From contig JAJEKV010000072.1 in assembly GCA_021234155.1 (NCBI GenBank), positions 6,305,676 through 6,369,675 of the forward strand: a stretch of 64,000 bases of DNA. The letters run 5' to 3'. The stretch comes from Isoetes taiwanensis. Lineage: Eukaryota; Streptophyta; Lycopodiopsida; Isoetales; Isoetaceae. Below, piece after piece: positions 12,263 to 36,322 of the stretch; position 1 is the first letter of the stretch; every line of letters begins with the position of its first letter. A model generated the notes under the pieces. It had not been told where the DNA came from. It did no database searches and saw only the letters and a list, made by a program, of their open reading frames with translations. A program made the position numbers and the translations under genes.

Positions 12263-14594
12263 CATTCAAGTTGGAAAAGCTACAAGACAAGACGAGATGA
12301 CATTGAAGATATGTTTTTGACAAGTCTGCTGAGCACTCTATGATGTTGATTTGGAAGATAAAGAAACTTCTAAACTGTATTTTTTTATCTATTCTAGAGT
12401 CGATTTCTTTACTTTCCTAAAGGTAAACATGATGTATTGACCGAATAAATTAATTGAATTGACAAAAGGAGATGGTTTTTGGTAATTTATTTTGCGATGA
12501 TAAATGTTAACCATTCTTAAGGCTTAAGTCAAAATTTACACCTGTTTTGGCTTAAGGCTGCATATTGGCCAGAAGTGGTCTTTGCAAAAGTCCATGGAAG
12601 GTAAAAGTCTGTTGAACAGATTTTAAAAGGTTTTTTTTTTTTTTGAAGGACTTGAGTCTTTATTATCCAGAGAAAGTTACAAAGTACAATGGGGACTAAT
12701 AACTCAGTGGAGAGAATGTCCACTAGAGCAAAACCACCCCACTCAAATACAACATCTAAACAATATGAAGAGCAAGCAAAAACTCATAAGTAAGTATGAA
12801 TCTGAAGATATTGCTCCCAAATATGGCTCTTCACCTCATTAGCAATTGATGAGCACCTGAATGCTTTGACAATTCGTTGTTGGGCATCAAGAAGGACCTG
12901 TGCATCTGAACAAGCAAGACCTTTGAATATGAGAAGATTCCTTCTTTTCCAAATGGACCAGATGATCCATGCAGAAGCCAAATGAAACGCTCTTTTTGCC
13001 AAATTATCCCAACTACTTGGATAAACTGCTCATAACACCTGCTGGCTATTCAAATTGCAATGAAAGAGGCCTTGAAGCCACAACCAAGCATGTCTGACAT
13101 GTCTACATAGGAAGAAGCAATGTTCAATTGTCTCTGCCCCTCTCAGGCACATAAGGGACAAAGTGCGGATACACCTCGACTAAATCATGCACCGTAATAT
13201 TAACGCTGCATAACGATGAGTGACTTGCCACCATAAAACAGATACTTTGGGATGGAGTAGTTTATCCCATACCCACTTCCATACTGCTTTCTGTCGATCC
13301 CTGGGAATGACCAAAGGCCACTTAGACGAAGGAGGCAAGACGTCGGCATCAAGCAAGACCTTGTACAACGAATTCACCAACTTATCTGCTTTGACATGCT
13401 CATGAACTACCCACGGCTGGGGGTCATCCACTTGTGCTACTGGGGGAAGAATTGAAGACACCTTCTGCCAAATAGCTCGATCCCACCTTAAAAGGAGGAA
13501 CTTATCTCTAAACTCCTCCCATGTCAGAAACTGCCTTTGATTATTATACCAATCAGATATCATATGCACACCTGCTGCTCTCCATCGACGTTGCGTCAAT
13601 GGGTGGACTGAAGCAACCAGAGGACCACCATCCAATGGAATCCACCAACAACTTGCAGTCATGCTAGTGTGCGCAAGATGGTGAAACTGAAACAGAGATT
13701 GTACAGTCTCCCATGCAACTAGCAATCCTCTAAGAAATGGGGATGCATTAGGGTATGCCACGCTGGATAGAACAGAGCCCAGGGAAAAGTGGCCTAAGAG
13801 ACCGAGACCCAAAAGAAATGCACATCCGCAAAGACTGGTAAACAAGGAATCATGGGGACTCATCCACATTATTCAAAATTCTCCAAATGAACTTAGAAAT
13901 CATCACCTTGCTCGCAAAAAGAAAATTGATCATTCCAAGGCCGCCAAAATGCTTTGGCAACATGCACTTTTCCCAATCGACTTTGACAAAGACACCCTCC
14001 TCTGTTCCCCGGATGAAGTTCCTAACAACCCCGACGAAAGTCAGATCTTTGACCGTGGAGCCAACATGAACGAAGCCATGTACACATGGGTGCCGCTTAA
14101 AACCGACTTAGCCACAAAAATTGCCCCGCCATGGAAAGCTTCATTGGACCACCAAAAAGGTGCTTTTCCAAGCCCTTAATCATCACTCCCACGCATCTCC
14201 CCGATGAGATATGAACACCTACGAGGGATATCAAGAAGTTTGGTTGCTTTTACCATGGGGAAGGATCTTCCATGGAAAGGTAGCTACACATGGTGGAACC
14301 GGAGAGTCCAATGCCCATAGTGTTTGTACATACGCCAACCCACAAAAATACCGGATGCTAGGGAAAAGGAATCCAACAAGGAAATGGCATTCTGCAAATT
14401 TTGCTCATCTGCCCTCAGAAAAAGGAAAGTGTCATCCACATATTGATTACAGATCTCCTGCGACCCATTGTTCATAGGAAGACCATGCAAGATTCCCTCC
14501 CAGGCGGCAAGAGAGAAGACACAGCAAGGACCTCACCCACAACAGAAATAACAATGGAGCTAAAGGGCAGCCACGGCGGATGCCACGCGACCCA

Positions 14595-14676
14595 AACAAG
14601 ATTAAGTATTAAACGGGAGCAAATCATTGAAACGAGAGCAAAAGGAATATTCATAAAGATTCCCCTTTTTTTTTAC
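14595..14676 (+). repeat. Left terminal inverted repeat of the 8.4-kb element
   Basis: It starts AACAAGATTAAG and contains AAACGGGAGC (14611-14620), a second related AAACGAGAGC (14630-14639) and AAAGATTCCCC, each with a counterpart in the right end. Confidence 0.8.
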
Positions 14677-14947
14677 GAAAAAGGGGGTAAAATGAGGTTA
14701 AAAAAAAAAAAGATGCATGAAATTCTATTTTGACCCCCCAAATGACTAAATTTTTTTTTTTTATGAAGGAATTGACTTTTTTAAGTGTCACTTTTCTTAG
14801 CAAAAAGAATGTTCTTAAAGTATGTTTTAAGAGAGAAACTCTAATTTCAGAGGATAAAATATTTAACAAAAATTGAAGTAAGTCCATGAATTGAAACTGT
14901 AGTATTCTCAAAATTTGAAGATAGAATCTTCATATTCACATCAAAAT

Positions 14948-17900
14948 TTACAGGTCTTTTTTTCTAAGACTTCGATTATGTGCAAAAGTGTGAGGAGTGA
15001 TGAGAGAGGGATCCGGGGCGTCCTCATGTTCATTTATGCCATCGTCATCACCTTCACTTCTTTCAATCACTTTCGAGGAAGTGCTTGAGTTATCTTCCTC
15101 ATCACTATCAACAGGCGGTGAAGCATTGTCACCACCTTCTTCATCATCTTCTTCATAATTACAAGCTTTTTTAAGCAAATTGATAGTCTTCCGCGTGAGG
15201 CGATTGTCGATTTCAATTTAAAATCATAGCACAATATAGTCCGCGTCATTAAGGTTCACTTTCGTCCCTACAACCCACCTTCTTGGACTTTCTCCCTTTT
15301 CCTTGGCTTCTCATTTCTAACTCATATCTACCTTCAAAAGCATTTTACGGCGTGTTGCAAGCCAATGAATCTTGAGTTTAGTGACTAAGCCTTCCTCCTT
15401 GATCGTGTCAAGCACTTTTATCCGATCGAGCGACCTTTGTCATCCTCCTCGGTCGGAAGAGCAATTAGCATACCTTTGGTAATTTACGTGATATTACCTT
15501 GGGGCTCATTCTGTACGTCTTGGTCCGGGTACATGACTCGGTCCTCCTCGTCTTCTACTTCGGTGCAAATGTAGCACCGCTTGGACCCGCTTGGTCTTTG
15601 GGGGTTGATGGAAGGTGTTAGGCCATTGAAATGGTTCTTGCAAGCTGCCTTAGAGCTATGTTTTGTACAACAATTTTTCGTTAGAAAGAAATTACTCCAC
15701 CACATCCGATCTTCTTCTAAGAAGTACTTAAAGCTTTGGAAATTCCATTTTCAATGGCTTTTAAGGATGACTCTGGGTACTTTTCTTCCTTGGACTCCTT
15801 AGGATTTTTGAGAGGAAGTTGCTCAAAGACGCTTCTATGAAGGAAGTGTCCGGAATATATTTAAGGAAGCGTAATCCCTCCGGGCGGACTCCAGGTCCTT
15901 AGTTGTGGTATACTTCTTCCCCAGAAGAAGCTTTGGCCATCCTTCAAGTAGAACTTGATATGATGTTGAAAGGTGAGATCATTCAACTTGTTCCGCCTTT
16001 TGTTCTCTGTTTGAACGTTGAGAAAAAACAAACTCTCTGAAATCGCAGCCTCTTTAAGAAGATGGAATTCACCGGAGTAGGAGTGTAAGAATCTTCAATA
16101 ATTCGAACTAAAAGAAGGAAGACGAAAAGCCTTCTTCCTTCTAAAGGCGCCTGAAAAAATCTCTTTGAACATTTGGTCAATCTGATCATGAGTGTGGCCT
16201 ACAAGTAAGAAACCGAGCTTCACTTTTCTAAAGATCCCTAGCTCCACTAACATGGCACAAGATGCAAAGAGTGTTTGATTCTTGTTCTCCCTTGTAGTAT
16301 TGTCAAGTTGCGGATAAAAGCACCGGGTGGTAATTGCTCTTGCTCGCATGGGACCTTGTTAAGAATTGTAATTGTGAGGTTGGGGTCACCATGCAAGTTT
16401 GGATACGTCAAAAAAAACTTTGCACCTTAGACTTCCTTTGAAGACCATAGCTCCTACAAGGTGGACCTTAACAAAACATTCCTCCGCACATCTTTTTAGG
16501 AATGTTCAAGAAATGTGGTAGAGTTGTTTTTTTGTCCATTCCATCAATCACAAATGGACATGTATTGCGGTGGACGTTCAAGAGCTTTTTTCTATGCTTG
16601 GCAAGCTTTCTTCTCTACTCTGCTTGTTGTTCACGATGTGCCGCAAGGTTCCGTTGCACAATATCCTGTAGAAGAAATCAGGTCAAAGCATTTTCTCTAA
16701 AACAAGTGAGAGATTGGAGAACATGAACTTACTTCTTTCGACCTCTCGTCTTTTGCGGTTTCTCGTTGACTCTTTAATTCTCGCACACCTCGAGCAAACA
16801 AACATTCTATGTTTTCTAGGAATTTTCACAAGACCTAATTCACTTTTCCACACACGGTGAAGTGTGAGTAAGAGATGTCTTTGGCCGAGTGCAAGTCTCT
16901 TTGTACTCATTAAAACATCTTTTTTGTGATGTTATCGGTTAAATGATACATGTTCTTTGTTAGGTAGCTTCTCACATGTTTCTCTAAAATATTTCTCCAT
17001 CCAGACACAAGAAGAAAGGGCATGCATGGTTACAACTCTTCTTGGTCCACAATGATCATCGATTGCTTTTGGATTTTTGTCCGATCTTTTGTGTATTCTA
17101 GACATTCTTGTGGACCCTAAACGGTGGACAACCATAAAACATTTCGGCAAACTTCTTGGCGGTTAATGTAGTGCAAGAAGGTGTTCTTGGCTGCAGTCTT
17201 ACATGATAAGCTAAGTAGGCATTCAGTGCGCCAATGTCATGGAACTGTAGTTGTCTCTAACTGCCGTAATTTAGCCATGTTAAGTCCGTTGATGCAACCC
17301 AATGAGCAGCAGATTTAGTTCTCAAAAGTCTCCTCATTTTTCTGTTCATCCATAAGATTTCTTCTTCTTGCAGAGGAGCAAGCCCTCAAACCAAAATCCA
17401 CCTTGAATTTCTTTGAAGATTGGCTTGAGAACATGTAATCTCTTTGTTCCTCGTTGGTGTCTTCATCTTCTCGTGAAACTTCTACTCTGGGGGTGCCTTC
17501 CTCTCTCCGAGTGGTGTGCTTGTAGAGGAAAAGCAGACCACGTGAAGTTGTTCCCTAATAGGCGGGGGGTGCGGTGTTAAAGGGTGGTGATGGCCCATAA
17601 GAGGTTGTGGCATCACCGTTCTTGTACCATCTTGAAAAGGAGTTCTTGCAAACATCTCCTTTAGAGCGGACTGAATTCTCGCAAATCCATGTGTCACAAC
17701 CGTTGTTGTGTGAAGAGGAGTGCATCTTTGGAGCTTAGGTCCTCATTTGTAGTGAAGTCCCGTGAGAGAAATTGTAGTGAATCTCACAGCCTTACGTGTT
17801 TTCTGTGTTCCTTGTATTTTGCACGAAGGAGGCGAAACTACAAAAGGGGGGGGTAGCTTGTTCTTGAGCACCCTTTGTTGTGGAGCTTCTGCAGGTCCCG

Positions 17901-18150
17901 GGGATGGAACAAAGGGTGGTGGCAGCCCGCTCCGAACTAGTGGTGATTCTTTGGAAGGAGATGCCAGTGTGCTGTCTACAGGACTTGGTGACGGTTGGAA
18001 GGGTGGTGGAAGTCTGTTACGTGCTGGACTCGGTGTGTCTTCGAGAAGCAAGAACGATGAAGCAGAGGTAGGAGTCGGAGAATTCCGGTCTTCAGAAGAA
18101 CGACGTTGGTCCCAAGCGTGTCCTCGTAACTGCGATTTAGCTTGAGACAA
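14948..18150 (-). pseudogene. DUF7869-type protein, putative transposase
   Basis: Pieces in all three minus frames line up in the order of DUF7869-domain proteins. There is an N-terminal Pro-rich part with three LPPPF-x-x-SP repeats (about 17830-18080). A CKTAAKNTFLHYINR piece (about 17180) and WMEKYFRETCEKLP (about 16990) follow, then VKIPRKHRMFVCSRCARIK (about 16800), IDGMDKK...LPHFL (about 16510-16560), and QLDNTTRENKN...LVGHTHDQID (about 16180-16310). A C-terminal very acidic tail (EEDDEEGGDN, DSDEEDN) ends at 14948. The three Asp positions (DGMD, QLDN, HDQID) could be a DDE/DDD-type catalytic set; this is inference from spacing and invariance, not a proven activity. Numerous frame breaks, some probably introns and some mutations or assembly indels. 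It is divergent to the ParB-methyltransferase gene, with the first palindrome array between them. Confidence 0.75.
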
Positions 18151-18605
18151 CGAAAGGTGGTGGAAGTTTGTTGACGGCGGTTTGTCATCTTAAGAACTCG
18201 CAAAAAGATTGTAGAGTTTAGATAATGTTTCTCTCCGCAGCTTTTCTTATTCGAATACAAGCCCGCCTACTAAAAGTAGAACTTCCCCGCAACAATTAAG
18301 CGAAAGGCAAACTAAAAGCTATTCCCAAATACACTAGAGCGAAACAAGAAGGCCAAACGTATTCCACTTCACATAGAAAACGAAAGCAAGACGGAATGGA
18401 CACCTTTTAAAAGGAAATTTTGGCGCCTTGGCCATGTATTCCATCCGAAATTTGAAGTCGCCACGCGCCAAAATATAATATAATTCGTGAGCTGTATTCC
18501 GATACTCATAGAGAAAACATGGAGAGGTGAGTAAGAAAGTACAAGGTACAATCATTTGTGTGTTCCGTTTTTATTCCCATACATTACGCTTTCCTTCCCT
18601 AAAAA

Positions 18606-18821
18606 GTGTATTCCGTATCACTTTCGCCGAGGGAGATTTAATGTGTATTCCGAACACTTTCGCGCCGAGGAAGGCGTAAGTGTATTCCGGAATACACTTC
18701 GCCTTGGAGGAAAGGCGAAAGTGTATTCCGGAATACACTTCGCCTTGGAGGAAAGGCGAAAGTGTATTCCGGAATACACGTTCGCCTTCCCTCAAAGGCG
18801 AAAGTGTATTCCGGAATACAC
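18606..18821. repeat. Palindrome array 1 (GTGTATTCCGGAATACAC, about 41-bp period)
   Basis: Four perfect copies of the 18-bp palindrome start at 18680, 18721, 18762 and 18804, and two degenerate ones at 18606 and 18643, spaced 37-42 bp. The spacers (TTCGCCTT...AAGGCGAA) are themselves palindromic. The array lies between the divergent starts of the two genes of the 8.4-kb element, so it may serve as a shared operator or as a binding platform. A further half-matching copy is at 18993-19008. Confidence 0.9.
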
Positions 18822-19802
18822 ATTCGTGTTCTTTTGTTTTGTAAGTTTGTTTTTCCGTGATTTTTGTAGTGACTTTAGGTGTTTTTTTGCTTTTTAAAAC
18901 TTGTTTAGACCTGTTTTTTTGTCAAGATTGCAGTGTTGTTTTGGCATTTTGGTCCTCTTTTTGCCCTTGTTTTTTCCTTTTCGCAAGACATTTTGTATTC
19001 TGGAATAGTTTTTTGCCACTGCTTTCTCTAACAAGATCGTGTTTACACACAATTTGCACAGACAAGAAGGCAGCAAGAAACAACACAAGAGGACCGTTAA
19101 AATCCCAACGAAACCGCACCCACAGAGAAGGGTTGAGGAGACATCTGCCGCCATCTACGAAAACTTTCAAACTCAATGGTTTTTTACAAGGGGTACTTCT
19201 GGAAAGTACAGCACACTTACTTTCCTACATGTCTGTCGGAGTTCTGGAGCAAAAGGTACGATGAGAGGGAATTTGTTTGCATGGGCACCATCCAAATCCG
19301 TGGAGTGAAGTAGGTCGGGGAGTCCGGCCAAATGAGGGAGACCGCCTCTTTTCAGACATCCCAAGGCTTTATTCATGTTGATGAATCCTATTTTAGAGTG
19401 GTGAAAGTAAATCCTCGTCCTCCAGACAAGTATGTTGCTCACTACATCAAGAAGAGGTCGCCGATTGCCATCATCAACTATGTTCGGAGCTAATAACGAG
19501 CGAAGACTTCCCCTACAAATGAAGTCCGAGGCAGGAAGAGGATGAGCAACCGAGCCGGCAGTTCCTCATCACAACTGAGAGTCCATCACAACCCGGGAAA
19601 AGGCCACCGGCCACCACCACCAAAGAAGCGGCCAAGGGACACAATTGTCGCTAAAGAGCCTAAAAAAAGCGACGGCCTTAATTGCAGCAGAGGATATTTC
19701 GAGGAACCTAAGAAGAAGAAGGGGAAGGGTAAAGCACCCGTGTTGCTATAAAGGAAAAAAAAAAGTTGACAAGACAAATGAAAAGATGGAAGAGATTAAC
19801 TT

Positions 19803-20429
19803 TTGCACAAGTTTGTGCAAGGTGTAATTTATTTGCCGATCCACTTCAATGAAGCTTCCACCGAAAAAATGAAGCGGGTGAAAGGCCACTTTCGTGTTCG
19901 CAAAATTTATGCCGATCACTTAAGGAACTCCGAAGACGTAATAAGGAGCAATCCAAATGCTCATGTGGCCCCAATAGTTGTCCTTGTTGACAGGGGAAGA
20001 GTACAAAACCCCCAGACTATGACGAGAAAAACGCAGACCTACACTCACTACGCCTTGGGAGGCAATCACGACTTTAAGGCAAGAAGGCAACTTTATAAAG
20101 AGAAGAAGAACCCGAGGTACCTCTCCGGCCCTCATATTTGTTTCTTTGGTCTTACCGATGAAGAAGCGAAAATCGTTGCCAACACCCACAATGCTGACAA
20201 CGAATATAAACTAAAGATGAGCTTCGTCGACAAGATCCGGTTCATGCACAGGGAGTACGTAATATTCAAGGAAAAGTACGGTGAGGACCTGAAGAAGCCA
20301 GCATTTTCCTTGGAGCTTAAGGAGGCGTGTGCTATTGAATGCTGCCTGAAATATGACGAGGCCAACAAAAGGCAGTCTCTCATTGGCCACGACAACTGGT
20401 TCCAGTTAGCTTTTAGAGATGGCAAGGTA
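19803..20429 (+). pseudogene. ParB-like domain exon
   Basis: The 209-codon exon reads YLPIHFNEAS, then a GGNHDFKARRQLYKE motif (20057-20100) that matches the G-x-x-H/R...A core of ParB/sulfiredoxin-fold domains, and GLTDEEAKIVANTHN (20150-20193), the usual ParB helix. This exon is the best preserved part of the gene (no internal stop). It ends in a GT donor inside GGCAAGGTAAGC. In ParB-methyltransferase fusions this domain is usually N-terminal, as here. Confidence 0.82.
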
Positions 20430-20783
20430 AGCACAAAATGTATTCCAGAATAGCAAATCAACTATTTAACGTGAATCTTCTTGAACAGATTTGGGAACTC
20501 CAGGACCAGATATTTACAATGTTCGAGCGAGGGGAGTTAAAGAGCAAGGGAAAGGAGACAGCTAAGAAAAAAAGCTCAGACGTACCCAAAAAAGAAATGA
20601 CCATTACCGCTCTCAAGGAAATGCGAAGTTTTCTCCGACCTTGAGCTTCTCGAGCAGCTTCTCCAAAAAGTTGTTGATAAGGAGTTTAGCCTAGAAGAAA
20701 TGTCAAAGGAATTACACAAGTAAGTTCTCTGACACAAACATTAGTTATTGCATGTTAGATTCCCAAAAACATCGGCGTGGCTA

Positions 20784-20963
20784 GTGTATTCCAGAATACA
20801 CATGCCTTTCTTTACACGGGCAATGTGTATTCCTAATACACATTGCTTGTCTCTAGAAAGGCATTGTGTATTCGGAATACACATTGCCCGTGTGAAGGAA
20901 GGCATGTGTATTCCGGAATACACATTGCTCCTCTGAATGTTGGCCTGTGTATTCTGGAATACG
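20784..20963. repeat. Palindrome array 2, inside an intron
   Basis: Five copies or near-copies of GTGTATTCCGGAATACAC start at 20784, 20825, 20866, 20906 and 20946, spacing 40-41 bp. The spacers differ from those of array 1 (CATTGC / GCAATG words), so palindrome and spacing are conserved while spacers are not. Single copies lie in other introns at 20439-20454, 21054-21071, 21818-21833 and 21859-21876. Confidence 0.9.
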
Positions 20964-21363
20964 CATGCGTTCCTTTAGAGAAGCAATGTGTTTGTCCTGT
21001 AGTAGAACTATTTTCTGCATATTGTTTCGAGGTAGCATCACAAGTTAACCGGTTTGTATTCCAGAATACAAATAGCTTGACTTGTATTTGTTTTTTCTTT
21101 TACGCTTGCCTTCATTCTTTCGTTTAAACTCATTGTTTCCTTAACGCCTTGCGACCAAAAAACGCCATAACATGTCAAACATGTTTGATGGAGCAACTAA
21201 ACGTCGACACATGGGAAAGGTGCAAGGAACTCTACCCAATTGCCACATCCGACGAAATGCGCATTGTCCAATATTCACCAAATTTTGAGGGGCTGGGTAA
21301 TTACACTTAGAATTCCTTCTCTCCGCACAAACTCTTCGACAAATTGTTGTTTTGTTTTTCTTA

Positions 21364-22606
21364 GAGCAAAAGAAAAATAAAGACCTACCCGAGGGCTTTA
21401 TGAATTTGGTTAGAACAGCACGGGAAGAGAGGTCGTTAGCTGAAAGAAGAACTGTTGAGCCAGAACCATCCGACTACGAGAGATTCTGCATGTTTGATCA
21501 AAACAATTTATATTCAATCATTCATGGTGATTGCAACGAACCTTGTCGAACGGTTAAGCCACGGGAGGACTTTACTTTGGTTATTGCTGATCTTCCCTAT
21601 GGGTTTAAGCTTAAAGACGGCAGATATCGGCGACCAGCCCTTCAAATTTTCAGAGTTTAATGCTTTTATTGAAGGAATTAAGCGATCTCAACGGCCAAAC
21701 ATTGGCGTTTGAATTCACGCTCCATTCGAGCATGCGATCAGCTTGGTGGAATCAGCTTTCAAAAATCACTTTGGTTCTCCGGTTCGCAGGGATATGAAAA
21801 CCTTTGTTCAGTAAGTCTTATTCCAGAATACAATTACTTTTCTCTTTAATTACGTAGTGTGTATTCCGGAATAGTATTTCCTGTTTCTGGTTTTCGAAGT
21901 GTTTTCTTGTTTTTGCTAATATCACTTTATATGCTTCACTAGGTACAAAACGAACATCAACTACCATGGTGGAGGACCAAGGTTGCTCAGCAAGGTAGAG
22001 TACCTTCATGTAGCTTATTGGAGTTTTGATGGGAAGAGGACCATGGATCACTTTAACACTGCCGCCTGTCAAAACTTTTCAAACGTCCTAGAGTTTCCAG
22101 CAGTCTTACAGAAATTGCAGGACCCAAGTGCACAAGGCAGGATTGTGAATCACTACCAGAAACCACAAAAGCTCATCAACCATCTCCTGGACATGTTCTC
22201 GCGGCGTCCGGAGATTGGGTACTTGATGCTTTCTCCGGGTTCTAGTACTACTATCGCATGTGCACTTAAGAAGGGCCGCAAGCGTAGCCGTGGATATTGA
22301 TAAGGAGGTCGTGCATTTTGTGAAGATGAGACTGGCTGCCTTACCTACTTTACCGGATGAAAATCGGAGTTAGGGGCCAAGTCTTCATCCGATTATGCTA
22401 AACTAACGTCCTCGAGAGATCTGACCTCCATTCTCCACTCACTAGACGATGAGGCAACCTTTGCAGAGCTTAAAGAAGTAGCTTTAGCTACCATTCCGAA
22501 GAACAAGGAGGATACAAAACTCAAGTCTCCAACAAAGGAGCGGATAGAAACGAGAAGGACGAGATGGCGTAGAGCAAAAAAAAGAATGAGGAGGACTATG
22601 ATGTAG
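21364..22606 (+). pseudogene. Beta-class DNA methyltransferase part
   Basis: After an acceptor CTTAG at 21364 the frame reads to motif IV (VIADLPYG, 21580-21603), shifts frame near 21620 and again near 21715, and crosses a GTAAGT intron at 21812. It resumes at YKTNINYHGGG near 21943 and reaches NHYQKPQKLI (about 22150). Motif I is visible only by following a short out-of-frame segment (VLDAFSG at 22219-22239), meaning two compensating one-base shifts around it. Downstream residues AC-x-x-KKGR and the basic C-terminus (RRTRWRRAKKRMRR) precede the stop. The target would be adenine N6 or cytosine N4; the sequence does not decide which. Confidence 0.72.
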
Positions 22607-22896
22607 ATCTTTGACTACTGCATATTAAAATTATCATTATTTATTACAATGAATCTTCAATATTGATGTACAACAATTTATTAAAAACATAGTACTTTTT
22701 TTTCCTTTCTATTCTGGTGCTTGTTTTTTGTAATGCTTTCAGTCTCTTCAAGTCTATGCCTAAATTTTGCTATTTTTATGATTTGTGTTTCATAAGTACA
22801 AAGTTTTCGTCTAATAATGGGCCAAAATGGCATGAAAAAAAATGCAAACCTCTAGAAATTCTTAACAACTATCAAAAAAGGCTTATTTTAGAAACT

Positions 22897-22966
22897 TGGT
22901 GTTTTTTTAAAGGGAATCTTTGAAACGGGAGTGATGCAACACTCCCGTTTAATTTGCAATCGTGTT
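22897..22966 (-). repeat. Right terminal inverted repeat with perfect hairpin
   Basis: Read inward from 22966 it is AACACGATTGCAAATT followed by an 11-bp perfect hairpin: AAACGGGAGTG (22923-22933), loop ATGCAA, CACTCCCGTTT (22940-22950). The left end has direct rather than inverted copies of the AAACGGGAG word, so the ends are not equivalent. Confidence 0.8.
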
Positions 22967-25900
22967 CCCACCTGAAAGAATGCCGAGGGTTCCCCTTGAA
23001 GAGAATAGAAGAGCGAGCAGAATAATGAAGCCTCATGACATCAGCTGTGAATTGTGCACCAAAACCAAAGCGTAAGAGACATCTCTCTAAGAAGGCCCAG
23101 TCAACACTGTCATATGCTTTTGCAAAGTCCAGCTTCAAATATACAATTTCATGGCCCTGAAGTCGAGCTCAGTAAATACCTTCATAGGCAGCAGCTACAT
23201 TGTTTAATATGCATCGTCGTGGCAGAAATCCTGACTGTGTAGAGGATATGGAATCAGCAAGAATATCCTGAAGCTTTTCTGCATAAGCTTTGGCAAAAAT
23301 CTTGTACACAGAAGATAGTAAGGTGATAGGGCGCTAGCCCGAAATTGTTGAAGGTTCCTTACACTTAGGAATAAGAGAAATGCAGCCTGAGTTGAGAATT
23401 TTGTCTAGACGCCTTTGCCTCTTGAAATCCTGAAACGCGTCGTACACATTATCGCCAACACAATCCCATAATTCCTGCAAGAACTCCACGGGAATACCAT
23501 CAATTCCAGGACACTTTCCTTTCTTCAAAAGGAAGGTAGCATCTGCTAGATCATTCACCGTAATCTCTGCTTCTAGAGTAGCTCTTTGTTCTTCAGATAT
23601 AATAGGATGTATCTTTGCCAGTAATGCCTCCTGAAAATCTGATTGGAAGGGAAGACGACGAGAAGCAAAAAAGGAAGAAAAGTGGCCATGCAGAAAGAAC
23701 TTAAGTTGCTGAGGATTAGAGATGAGAGGCCCATCTTGAACTTGGAGAGACACCATCGCAGAAGCTTGTGTCCGAATTTTTGCAGCTCTAAAAAAGAAGC
23801 ATGTGCAACGATCCCCCTCTTTGAACTATTGCAGGCCCGCTTTAACTCGAGCGTGATGAACTTGCTCAGCTTCCATCTGTCTAATGCTGGCCAAAATCTG
23901 CTTCTCCTGCTGAGCATCTGATGGTACAACAGACCTGCAAGCCATTAATTGTTGGTACAGAGCAATCAAAATCCCTCGATTAGCAGCAACTCGCTGACGA
24001 CCCCAATTCTTAGCCAAGGACTTCACGGCAGCTAGAGCATCAACAATCCCAGCCATTCCTTTCCTTCTCACAAATGCAGAGGACCAGGCTTGCTTGCATC
24101 CATCTTTAAACTCCTCATCCTTCAAGTATAAAGTGTTTAACTTGAAATAAGTCTTGGTCCTGCTATGCGATCCATCCTGAGAACTGTCAAGCATGTTTTG
24201 GCGAGAGAAATTATGCAAGTATGTAGCTGCCAATGCATTATAATAGCCCCTGTCATGACGTGCATATGCTCTACCAGCCTCAAGCCAGCCATTGCACCAA
24301 GTGAAGGTTCCATCGCCATCCACCTCTACCAAGCCACAGTCATGTATCAAGCACTGCCATTGTTCATGTTCAAAGCCTTGGATTACTTCTGATCCTCTGC
24401 CGCACCGATCCACTTCCAACTCCACCATATTGAAGTCACCCACCAGCAACCATGCAACATGAGCCCCCAGTCGAACTAGTTTGGATCTCAAAGCAGCCAG
24501 AGTGCACCTCTCTGATGAGGTCTATTGTGTGCATACACATTCACTAGTCCCCACTCTTGACCCTTATCAAACCACTTGATAATGATCCAGCGACCAAATC
24601 TGTCAGCATGACTGAACGTGACTGCTATATCATGTCTCCATGCTGTAAGGACCCCCACTTTTGCCGAGTCTGCTGCAGCCACCAAGACGTTATATTTCCT
24701 ACCGATCACAGAAGCTACCTTTGTGCTCTTGTAGACAATAGAAATCTGAATTCATTCTAGCAAGAGCCATGGAAAGTCTTCTCCTTTTAGTTGGGGAGGA
24801 AGCAACACCCCGAACGTTCCAAGAAACCAGCTTCATAATGCAGGGGGGTCTGGTGGACGGTGTTCCAAATCCGTGGAGTCACTATTAGCAGATGATACTT
24901 CCACCTGATCAGCCCAGGTCAGTCCAGAGGATGCAGGAAGGGTTGTAACAATGGTAGCCACTACTGGTTCAGCTAGAGTAGCACACTCAACAGGAAGAGA
25001 TTGTGGTGCAATAGTGTTTCTCCGACGGGCAACTCTCTTCATATGAGGGATGGACCACTCACCTCGAGATGCTTCCAGTCGTTCTTGTTTGCGAGCAATG
25101 ACTGCAAGCCTCTCACGTTGCTCATCAAGAAGAGCATCTTGGGACACAGAGGAGGCGGGAGGAGAGGGAGAAAAAGGGGCAGGAATAGACACAGGAGCAG
25201 AGGCAGGTTGGCTAGGACCCGAAGCTGCCAAGACTGGAGAGGGATCAAAGGAAGATGGAGACACTTGGCCATGGGCTGCAGATGTTGCAGGAGCAAAGGG
25301 AGGTGTTCTTCTAATGCAAAAACTAGAGAATGCCTCAGCATCAGGAAACATGTCTGCAAGCTCAGGACCATTAAGTAGTGACAAACTATATTTGAAGAAC
25401 AGTGGACCACTTTTGACCACAACAGATTTTGGGAGAGATGCATCAGCTGGAAGAGAGACACAAATACGAGGACCATTCACAATAGAGTGAGCAAGATGGA
25501 GACCCAAGCCACTAGCAATAGCCATCATGAACTCTGGAACTTGCAACTCAATAGGAAAATCTTCCAAGGCAAACCAGCATGGCATCCGAAGTGCACTAGT
25601 CCTGCTAGGCAAAAAGCCAGGAGTGTATACCTGATACAAAAGATAGTGCCCCCATAAAGGATCTACTCCCCGCTCCACCAGCTTATCAACCGCTATGGGA
25701 GACCCAAACATGATTAGGAAATAATTGTTTTCCTTATCAAGGACCTTCAAAGACTCATGCTGGGGTAGACCCAATCTCTGTAGATGTTGCTTCTAAGATC
25801 GACAAACTGACCAGTAAAGTGACACACAACAGCATGAGAGACAAGATTCTGAATACACTGCAAATGTACCCCGTGATCAATCTCAACTACAGGAAGCCCC

Positions 25901-26229: not shown

Positions 26230-27010
26230 TAGTGTCATTGATTGTGTCGATATTTGGCCTAAAATGGCAACTTGAATTTTTTTAATAACTGACGCTATGG
26301 ATGAGGCAACCCGGTGACACAAATGTGGCAATGAGAACGTCATATATAATGTCAGCACATTTGTCACTTATAACGTCATAATGTTTGTCACTTATAACGT
26401 CAGAGGCAATGTCACCTTTAACGTCAAATATAGTGTCAGAACTTTTGTCACCTACAATGCCACCTTTTATGTCAAATATAGTGTCAGTACTTTTGTTACG
26501 TACAACGTTAGTGGCTACATCACCTGTTACGTCAAATACGGTGTCACCTAGAAGCCAACTATAATGTCAAGCATAATGCCACTATTAACGTCATTGGTGA
26601 AGTCGCTTATAGAGTCGTATGTAGCGTCATCTATAGTTCCACTTACAACTTCGCATATACAGTCGCACACCACTCATAATGCTAAATTATGTCAAACCTA
26701 GTGTCACCTCTAATAGCATCTTTAATGACACTTATAAGACATCTATTTCCTCAATACCAATGTCACCTATGTTGCCAATATCAATGTCATTTATTATGTC
26801 GTCTATATTGTCAATAATAATGTCATTTCTTGATGCATTGTTGCGATATAATTAGTTTTTCTTGTGGCACTAGTAGCTTTTTTACTAGGCCGAAATTGGG
26901 ACAATATTAATGTTAATGTGTATTGTGTCACTTCTATCATTGGATGATATAGATGTCATTGTTTATGTCGTGGTTAAGGTCATAGATAGTGACATCTAGA
27001 GAGCCAATTA
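26230..27010. repeat. Left subterminal GTCA-rich repeats of CACTA
   Basis: The words ATGTCACC, AACGTCA and ATAGTGTCAG recur every 15-30 bp. A longer unit, GTCAAATATAGTGTCAG followed by ACTTTTGT, occurs twice (about 26425 and 26470). Confidence 0.8.
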
Positions 27011-30180: not shown

Positions 30181-30689
30181 TTATATTAGGTGGGTTGATT
30201 AGTTTTGCTCATTTATATTTGGTCTTGGAGAGGATGAAGCCTATGGACTTTCCCACAGTTTTTAGCCATTAGACAAACCCCTTATGGCCAATATACGATC
30301 ATTTTCTTTGCAATATTAATACCAAAAGAAGGTTCATAACATGTTGCGAAAATTCCCATGCATTTCAAAAACATAAGAAAACTTCTATATGGCCTCTTAC
30401 TATTTGTAGCCATGGAAACCATTCAGATCCCATCTTTATAGCTTGAATCTGGAATTATCCATTACACACAATGAACATCAGTACAACCAATTAGTGTTAG
30501 TCCTTCCTTTGTGCTATTCATAATATCACTATATGAACTAACACAACATTTGGACACAACTACTAGCACAATATTTGACAACATTGATGATAGTCATAGT
30601 AACATCTATTATGGAAACATTGACGGAATTTATGACACTAATGGTGCTATTATATTTAATGCCAATACCACCACCTATAATGTTAGTAT

Positions 30690-30953
30690 TGGGCACTGAC
30701 ACTAATAATGATCTTATATGTGTAACAACTCCTGACACTATACTTGATGCTAATAACAACATCTATAACATCATTAGTGGGTACTGACATTGATACTGAT
30801 GTTATATGTGTAACAACTACTGGCACTATACTTGATGCTAACAACACCACCTATAACGTCACTAATGGGCACTGACACTAACACTGATGCTATATATGTA
30901 ACAACTGGTGACGCTATAATTGGTGCTAATAGCAACATCTATAGTGGCATAGC
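30690..30953. repeat. 88-bp tandem repeat, three units, right CACTA subterminus
   Basis: Units start at 30690, 30778 and 30866 (TGGGCACTGACACT-type starts) with exact 88-bp spacing. Each contains TATATGTGTAACAACT and a GATGCTAATA-like word. Together with neighbouring TGACACTA words they form the right subterminal region. Confidence 0.85.
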
Positions 30954-33828: not shown

Positions 33829-36322
33829 ATGAATCTCAGGAACAGATCATATGCTGTGCCTCCACAAGCTCCTTCAGTAGCTCCTGAAAGTCTAGATGAT
33901 GTAATTCCTGCCCCTTCCAGCAAGAAGAAGAGGTCTTCAAGGCCTATTATTCTGCAACAACAAGATTTGCATGAAGAATTGGGCCCGAAGAAGGTCAGAT
34001 ATTTCAAAAGGGGGACCTGGTCCAAGGAGAACTTGGATAAGGCAATTGATGCTATTGATGATGGAATTTTATCCATCACAAAAGCTGTCAATCACTATGG
34101 CATACCACAAACCACCCTTCGAAATCATCTCTATGGTTTATCTCTCAACAAGTTTGGTGCTATTCCAAAGGGATTAACCATAGAGGAAGAAGAGAAATTG
34201 CTGAATTTGGCCTTTCAATTGTGTGAAAAAGGGAGGCCATTCACACTTGATGTGATGAGGGAGAGGGTTGGTCAGATGACAATAATAGGCAAACATGCTT
34301 TAAGCATGGATTGCCTGGACCTAAATGGTGGAGGGGGTTTAAGAAAAGACACCCTGATCTTGTATTAAGATCCACACAATGTGTGGAGGATAGAATGAAG
34401 GCAATGACCACACACAATTTGCAGAATTTTTATGGCACTCTAATGAAAGTGTATGAAGATTTGCAGCTAGATCCTTCTAGGATATGGAATTGTGACAAAA
34501 CTGGAGTACAAGCTGGAGATAGACATGGTATGTTTTGGCAAGGAAAGGTAAAAAGGAAGTTACTCAAATAGTTCCTGTAAATAGGGAATGGGTTACTGTC
34601 CTTGTTTGTGTTAATGCTAGTGGCATAAAAATTCCTAACTTGTATGTTTTCAAGGGGAAAAGAATCAGGGATACAAATTTGCTTGCTGGTTGTGACGCTG
34701 GCGCCATTCTTAGCTTCCAAAAAAAAAGCTTGGATCACTGATCTTTTATTTGAATCATGGTTGGATCATTTTAGAAGACATGTTCCAGGAGGTGTTTCCA
34801 AAGATAGGCCACATCTTCTAATTTGTGATGGCCATGGGAGTCATGTGACTCTTGAGACCATCATCAAGGCAAAGGAGATGGGACTTCACATTTTGAATCT
34901 GCCAGCATATACCAGTCATCGTCTTCAGCCCTTAGATACAAGTGTTTTTGGGCCGTTCAAGACTAGTTTTAGGAGGCGAAGAGCAAAGTTTGTGCATGAT
35001 AAGTATGGTATGAAACCATCAAAATAAGATATTGCTTCTCTCATTTCCAATGCAAGAATTTCTGCATGCACTTCAGCCAAGATAAAGGCTGGATTCTCCA
35101 CAACAAGTATATGGCCTTTTGATAATTTGAAAGTACAATCTGATCCTGTAGCTGATAGAATGCATGCCGAGAGGATGGCCAACCATGTAATCATAAATAG
35201 TGATGATGATGCAGATTCTGATGTAGCAGAAGATGGACCAGTTGTAGAAGGTAAATTATGTGATTGCTTTTCTTATTTTATTTTATTTTGCATTCCTCTT
35301 ATCTAACACCACTTATTTTTCAAATAGGAGCTCCGGCTGTTGAAGAGCAAGGTGTTATTCTACCAGCAGCAATTGATGTAGGCAATGAGCCTATTCTGCC
35401 AACTAATGCAGGTTTTGAACCTATTCTAGAGGGGCAACATGATATTGTTTTACCTGCCAGGTCTGATCAGCAAACTAATACAACAAATAATGATATTGTT
35501 GTACCTGCCAGGTCTGATCAGCAAACCAATCAAGCAAATAGTGATATTATTGTACCTGCCAGATCTGATCAGCAAACCAATCAAGCCAATCAAGGTAAAA
35601 AGAGTAGGAGAGCCAGAATTCCAAATTCATTAAGTAATAGGTTATATGTTTCTGCAGATGATGTTATTATTGCCAGAATTGAGTTGCAAAGGAAACATGA
35701 TGAAGCAGCTAGAATTAGAGAGGAAAAGGAAGCTGAGAGAAAGAAAATACAGGAAGGGAAAAGAATGGAAAAGGAGATGGAGAAGAAGAGGAAGGAGGAA
35801 GAGAAAAAGAAAAGAGAGGAAGCAAAGAAATAGAGGGAGGAGGAGAAAAGAAAAGCGATAGAGGATAGGAGGCCAGGAAGGCCAAGAAGAGAAAGAAAGG
35901 CTAAAAAATATACAGATTATGATATGGATACTGATGATGGTGAAAAAATGCAGGAGGAATATGCTTCAGACCATAGACAGCAGCAAGAAGTAAGTGAGGG
36001 AAATGCAAATTTGCAGCAGAGCCAAGGACTTGAACTTGTAGTTGACTTGCATGTTGATGAACAACATGCATTGCTCCAGGACAGCCAGCCACCTATTGAG
36101 GAAGAGGATATGATAGGTTGTAGTTTGGAGGAGACTCACATGTGTTCATGGAACCAACATTGCAGGGAAAAAGAGGACCAATTGGCTGAAAATATTCAGC
36201 AAACACCTTCTTCATGTTCTGATAGTTTTGATGAATCTGAAGAAATTCAGAAAAAAACAAAAGCATTGGATGATTTGTATCGAGCCGAGGCACATAACCA
36301 TTTGTTAAACCTTGGCCTTTGA
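33829..36322 (+). pseudogene. Pogo-like transposase (HTH_psq + DDE_1)
   Basis: The start MNLRNRSYAVPP leads to a psq-type helix-turn-helix (RGTWSKENLDKAIDAIDDG ... YGIPQTTLRNHL, about 34005-34130) and a second helical part. The catalytic core follows: IWNCDKTGVQ (first Asp, about 34480), LICDGHGSHVT (second, about 34820), NLPAYTSHRLQPLDTSVFG (third, about 34900-34950) and IWPFD (about 35110). Frame breaks at about 34310, 34550 and 34730 (the last beside an A run) and a TAA at 35025 disable it. An intron, GTAAAT to AATAG, spans about 35250-35328. The C-terminal exon holds three 17-residue repeats, a Lys/Glu-rich coiled stretch, one in-frame TAG at 35831, a GRPRRERKAKK basic patch and an acidic tail. 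DDE_1 enzymes cut and paste DNA at TA sites. TIRs were not found. Confidence 0.85.
35441..35593 (+). repeat. 51-bp tandem repeat, three units, in coding sequence
   Basis: Units start at 35441, 35492 and 35543 and encode DI[VI][LV]PARSDQQTN plus four variable residues (17 residues each). The function within the transposase is unknown; it may be a linker. Confidence 0.9.

Follow-up and report, generated by a model that had tools for sequence, protein, structure and literature searches.

Why would a plant DNA transposon carry a gene resembling bacterial DNA methyltransferases, and how would such an element be built? This question is raised by an element of 8,372 bp (14595-22966) in a 64,000-nucleotide stretch of Isoetes taiwanensis DNA (GenBank assembly GCA_021234155.1, contig JAJEKV010000072.1, positions 6,305,676 to 6,369,675 of the forward strand), here called the window. 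From the sequence alone, the original prediction had described it as a mobile unit whose cargo comprised a DUF7869-type protein, a ParB-like domain, a bacterial-type DNA methyltransferase and arrays of palindromes. We find that the element belongs to a family with hundreds of copies, that its DUF7869 protein is probably the transposase, and that the predicted methyltransferase is held by purifying selection in a lineage that shares one 18-bp palindrome.

The element is bounded by terminal inverted repeats of 25 bp (14595-14619 on the plus strand and 22942-22966 on the minus strand; 20 of 25 bases match) and by CCCA target site duplications at 14591-14594 and 22967-22970. The inverted ends are thus as predicted, though their matching part covers only about 25 bp of the 80 bp proposed; the left end reads AACAAGATTGCGTATTAAACGGGAG in other copies. 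The insertion interrupts a minus-strand long interspersed nuclear element (LINE), which resumes beyond the gap. When both LINE flanks were joined (204 nt) and searched against the same genome, the junction was spanned by uninterrupted LINE copies in all 40 cases scored (90-92% identity; 471 first-look candidates), and the three copies that were aligned each hold one CCCA. Because the element is flanked by a CCCA pair where the uninterrupted LINE has a single one, it is an insertion with a 4-bp duplication. The host LINE itself (minus strand, 13180-14594 and 22967-25774) has a reverse transcriptase and a zf-RVT-like end, both recognised by eye, and is multicopy in the genome, to judge by the same 471 candidates.

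The whole genome (1.66 Gb in 1110 contigs) was then searched with 35-bp patterns of the two ends, allowing up to 3 mismatches and using the reversed patterns as control. The left end matched 813 times and the right end 657 times, with 0 matches for either control, so the same termini recur well beyond this locus. We fetched 20 stretches of 10 kb (L009-L028) from 39 other left-end places listed, best first, a sample biased to well-preserved left ends. All 20 hold a full-length element of 8.3-8.5 kb with the DNA of both genes, and their main matches to the window element show about 87-95% identity. The 25-bp ends are present in the window and in all 20 fetched copies (the degraded right end of L027 was placed by hand), and all 21 copies, the window's own among them, are flanked by a 4-bp duplication, with no evident sequence common to the 20 fetched sites. 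Since L009 and L027 share one target, the independent sites number 20 (19 plus the window) and not 21. The possibility that the two genes sit in two separate elements is ruled out, as one pair of ends encloses both in each of the 20 copies. Ends, duplication, empty site and recurrence together bear out the proposed mobile unit of 8,372 bp, and neither of the outcomes named against it in the original prediction occurred.

Which of the two proteins moves the element? The DUF7869 gene lies on the minus strand (14951-18190, outer limits approximate, drawn from open frames and the relative P0004); it is spliced, and its frames are broken in the assembly. Its core piece (16098-16358, minus strand) contains the motifs QLDNTTRENKN and GHTHDQIDQMF and matches PF25273 at E 1.2e-24, so a DUF7869-type protein is present as proposed, but it is probably the transposase of the element and not part of its cargo. 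The RNase H-like core of the DUF7869 protein matches solved transposases. The candidate catalytic triad is D39, D119 and D158 or D161 (P0004 numbering): among 44 DUF7869 proteins, D39, D42 and D119 are invariant and D161 is conserved in at least 90%, which speaks to conservation and not to geometry; a PDB sequence search with the same 44 proteins gave 0 matches. The closest relative is P0004 (59%), and named relatives come from a fern, a liverwort and a charophyte alga. DUF7869 is named in none of the 5.39 million open-licence papers searched. This family of unknown function gains a probable one here, that of a transposase. The C-terminal part of P0004 (residues 390-480) is beta-rich and has weak Foldseek matches to BAH-domain entries (EBS, AIPP3 and DNMT1 chains), which may hint at a chromatin reader within the transposase.

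The second gene runs divergently from the first on the plus strand, with a shared spacer between them (19158-22373, C-terminal tail possibly to about 22603; spliced, drawn from open frames and the homologues P0001-P0003). Its methyltransferase part comprises an exon with motif IV, IADLPYG (21370-21652, from open frames and motif search), and, behind an intron at 21811-21942 (boundaries by eye), an exon with motif I (21944-22373), such that motif IV stands ahead of motif I. The window's own broken exon matches PF01555 weakly (E 0.096, below the cut-off), whereas its counterpart without a stop in L021 (L021:7581-7877, 99 aa) matches the same family at E 1.2e-17 (65 bits, the cut-off being 26.7). 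This L021 exon also matches CcrM (E 3.4e-8) as well as MboIIA and RsrI (range E 3e-8 to 2e-7); its match to the NCBIfam CcrM model (E 1.2e-11) lies far below that model's cut-off. The bacterial-type methyltransferase of the original prediction therefore stands on the L021 exon rather than on the window's own piece. IADLPYG occurs in 19 of 21 copies, as does DAFSG or VAVDIDKE (any of the three plus frames, not necessarily one open frame). Judged by sequence, the predicted enzyme is a beta-class methyltransferase of the N6/N4 type (PF01555), and its IADLPYG motif suggests an adenine substrate.

The N-terminal domain of the same protein is probably, though not certainly, ParB/sulfiredoxin-like. 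Its exon lies at 19800-20426. Of the homologues P0001-P0003, one comes from Adiantum nelumboides, and the other two are ENA proteins without a name. P0001 has a weak ParB-like match in PHROGs (E 0.043), and all 6 matches (E <=10) of P0001 and P0002 in a PDB sequence search are sulfiredoxins, again weak (best E 0.46), with GGSH aligned. These matches lend some support to the ParB-like domain of the original prediction, but Pfam yielded no ParB match, its sole result for the window exon being DUF220 at an E of 0.0047, which falls short of the cut-off. The AlphaFold model of this part (predicted local distance difference test score, pLDDT, of 33) is too low in confidence for a fold, and no ParB domain was found in the two phage methyltransferases scanned as candidate ParB fusions. 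In a separate fold search, BFVD returned nothing at E <1e-3. Judged by titles and abstract openings, no report of a ParB- or adenine-methyltransferase in a plant or other eukaryotic transposon was found in the open-licence literature.

The third component of the element is an 18-bp palindrome, GTGTATTCCGGAATACAC, which has 2,585 exact copies in the genome and 0 for the reversed control. As had been claimed, it forms arrays: array 1 (18680-18827) repeats it every 41-42 bp in the divergent spacer, where a fifth palindrome follows at 18995, and array 2 (sites at 20786, 20908, 20949 and 21056 plus weaker units) lies in the intron 20720-21190 (3' boundary approximate) of the methyltransferase gene. 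Further sites lie in the introns 20427-20488 (GT..AG; one palindrome at 20440) and 21811-21942 (two, at 21818 and 21861). The window has no core site (<=2 mismatches) outside the element: of its 12, the divergent spacer accounts for 5 (18682-18995), and the other 7 are spread over 3 of the 4 introns inferred for the methyltransferase gene, intron boundaries being placed partly by eye. Chance palindromes were rejected, since none of 100 dinucleotide-shuffled versions of the element contained a core site and the reversed control was empty. Across copies the core sites number 1-16, lie about 3.6-4.5 kb and 5.8-7.4 kb inside the element and not at its ends. Among the 68 neighbouring pairs no more than 130 bp apart, 40 have a spacing of 41 or 42 bp, or about four helical turns.

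Is the enzyme maintained? We took eight stretches of 3 kb around palindromes (L029-L036, chosen among those listed first out of the 2,585 sites), and all eight lie in related elements, mostly with a 74-80% partial match to the window element, so that the palindrome is common to diverged element subfamilies. Over 44 sites from these loci, information content drops from a high level within the palindrome to a low one some 10 bp outside it, a contrast partly due to choosing sites by match. At L034, a closer element (89%) starts within 250 bp of palindromes belonging to a more distant one. Differences against these loci were counted by codon position, leaving out rows above 86% identity, after which the core and C-terminal DUF7869 references had no rows. 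Counts for first, second and third positions are 15/2/76 in the motif-I exon (rows from 2 of 8 loci), 52/58/207 in the ParB exon (3 of 8), 64/67/143 in the N-terminal part of the ParB-like/methyltransferase gene (4 of 8) and 102/54/191 in the DUF7869 N-terminal exon (4 of 8). The motif-I exon of L036 shows 94.7% identity as protein against 82.8% as DNA, retaining FSGSGTT and DLPYG with one stop in the stretch. This protein conservation and the third-position excess show that the predicted methyltransferase has been held by purifying selection.

How does this agree with the broken frames? The original prediction had called for a look at copies with both genes intact; the DNA of both is there in every fetched copy, but the methyltransferase region is broken in most of them. 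Among 21 copies, substitutions per site reach 0.14-0.16 at cytosines and guanines of CG and CHG sites against 0.03-0.04 elsewhere, deletions and insertions are raised there too, and at sites at least 11 bases from CG/CHG variation falls to about 1% or below. This CG/CHG pattern, like the relatives of both genes, points to a plant host. Simple deamination of 5-methylcytosine (5mC) as the main source was rejected, since C>T makes up only 434 of 880 substitutions at the C of CG and indels are raised as well. L009 (C908:21042374-21052373) and L027 (C908:21010902-21020901) share target and flanks 31 kb apart; their right flanks are 98% identical over 1,527 aligned columns (the first 960 bp nearly identical; the left flank was compared over 30 bp), yet across 7,624 interior sites, arrays excluded, the two differ at 545, where the median of all 210 pairs is 637 and theirs is the 48th most similar pair. 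Of these 545 differences, 412 lie <=2 bases from CG/CHG, a zone holding 32% of sites. The copy differences, frame breaks included, are thus probably in large part assembly errors from base-calling on methylated DNA, although some of the evidence can be read either way. Random error alone is hard to square with L027 having 155-169 non-majority states in common with each of L017, L019 and L026 but only 59 in common with L009; these shared states cluster beside CG/CHG too (143 of 169 for L027/L026). The errors would therefore be partly systematic, or else there are true sublineages shaped by gene conversion or targeted mutation. Frames are not to be judged from the present assembly, and broken frames in methylated plant transposons more generally could be misread as decay.

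Elsewhere in the window, tandem repeats unrelated to the element lie at 30651-30943 (88-bp units), 35439-35590 (51-bp, inside a 189-aa open frame) and 26345-26828 (24-48-bp).

What, then, would the methyltransferase do for the element? Our proposal builds on past mobility, on both genes lying in the mobile unit, on a transposase-like fold, on methyltransferase homology, on purifying selection and on the shared palindrome, all of which are backed directly here. The DUF7869 protein, with its RNase H-like DDE/DDD core, would act on the 25-bp inverted ends by cut-and-paste and leave 4-bp duplications. The product of the second gene would be a ParB/sulfiredoxin-like domain fused to a CcrM-type N6-adenine DNA methyltransferase, which may bind the palindrome arrays, with their helical phasing, both in the promoter spacer common to the two genes and in introns of its own gene. 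Once bound, it would mark the element with N6-methyladenine (6mA) or shield it, and so keep it expressed despite host cytosine methylation, much as the anti-silencing VANC proteins of VANDAL transposons do in a sequence-specific manner. We infer catalysis, adenine substrate, palindrome binding and anti-silencing purpose alike, and give about even chances to the view that this is an autonomous transposon with a self-addressed, anti-silencing ParB-methyltransferase regulator. More tentatively, and with the odds leaning against it, the history behind it may be that a plant transposon lineage acquired a fusion of ParB-like and adenine-methyltransferase domains of bacterial type and went on to evolve closely packed palindromic targets for it, using sequence-specific 6mA on itself to escape or time silencing. 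If so, 6mA would be a mark foreign to host 5mC silencing, and this would be, to our knowledge, the first eukaryotic transposon with a self-addressed system of adenine methylation. With a selected methyltransferase and a conserved palindrome, a single enzyme and a single 18-bp site could serve to test whether 6mA acts sequence-specifically in plants.

The palindromes could instead be sites for the transposase or a host factor, or hairpins, unrelated to the ParB-methyltransferase; in other families, subterminal repeats serve as binding sites of the transposase. This reading fits poorly with palindromes that are internal, in the spacer and in methyltransferase gene introns, and we consider it somewhat unlikely. 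A further idea, which we hold to be unlikely, is that the methyltransferase gates transposition, the transposase preferring or avoiding 6mA-marked DNA and thereby timing movement to replication or telling self from target. Dam methylation gates bacterial IS10 in such a way, and a CcrM-type methyltransferase under selection lies beside the transposase gene in all 20 fetched copies; however, the conserved palindrome sits in the spacer and introns, away from the ends, which fits expression control better than end recognition. Improbable to our minds is an autoregulator or partition-like factor that acts on promoter arrays and sets copy number, with methylation secondary: the arrays do lie between two divergent genes with a phase of about four helical turns, but the motif-I exon is the most constrained among the countable stretches. 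A methyltransferase picked up by chance as passive cargo, decaying and without a role, would accord with the broken frames in the window and in the methyltransferase region of most fetched copies, but this is rejected as very improbable given the third-position excess between subfamilies, frame breaks that look largely like assembly errors and a homologue in a fern.

Returning to the self-addressed regulator as the preferred reading, its parts can be set against known systems. The element is assigned to no superfamily here. The Sola superfamily has DDD transposases and 4-bp duplications, so that the duplication of our element agrees and a DDD-like core would fit; its termini differ from ours, and Sola is not known to carry methyltransferase cargo. 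VANDAL transposases are of the type found in Mutator-like elements (MULEs), with duplications longer than the 4 bp of our element. In the available part of one account, duplications measure 8 bp for Zisupton, 7 for Kyakuja and hAT7, 6 for IS3EU and 2-3 for others (PMC12730594), and membership in KDZ/Zisupton was rejected because our element duplicates 4 bp and not 8 (Zisupton) or 7 (Kyakuja). The fungal DNA transposons with TET/JBP enzymes treated there resemble our element in carrying a DNA-modifying enzyme discussed as countering silencing, so that ours is not the first of its kind in this respect; unlike our predicted methyltransferase, however, the TET/JBP enzyme oxidises 5mC, and these elements are fungal, with no ParB domain or palindrome array described in the part available (PMC12730594).

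Closer in layout are the Arabidopsis MULEs of the VANDAL21/VANC21 kind, which likewise combine a plant DNA transposon with an extra protein and set tandem copies of a short motif in non-coding DNA, in their own introns and upstream; the VANC21 motifs are found within VANC21 and VANB21 introns and ahead of VANA21 (PMC5735166). Our element shares this VANC-type trait of element-specific motif arrays outside coding DNA, a likeness of layout. VANC is not described as a methyltransferase or as ParB-like in that portion of the source, and its motif YAGTATTAY is non-palindromic, in contrast to our palindrome (PMC5735166). For the enzyme itself, the likeness is to the bacterial adenine methyltransferases CcrM, MboIIA and RsrI, with motif IV before motif I, FSGSGTT and a sequence match; unlike them, the predicted enzyme of our element is encoded in an intron-containing plant transposon gene, behind a probable ParB/sulfiredoxin-like domain.

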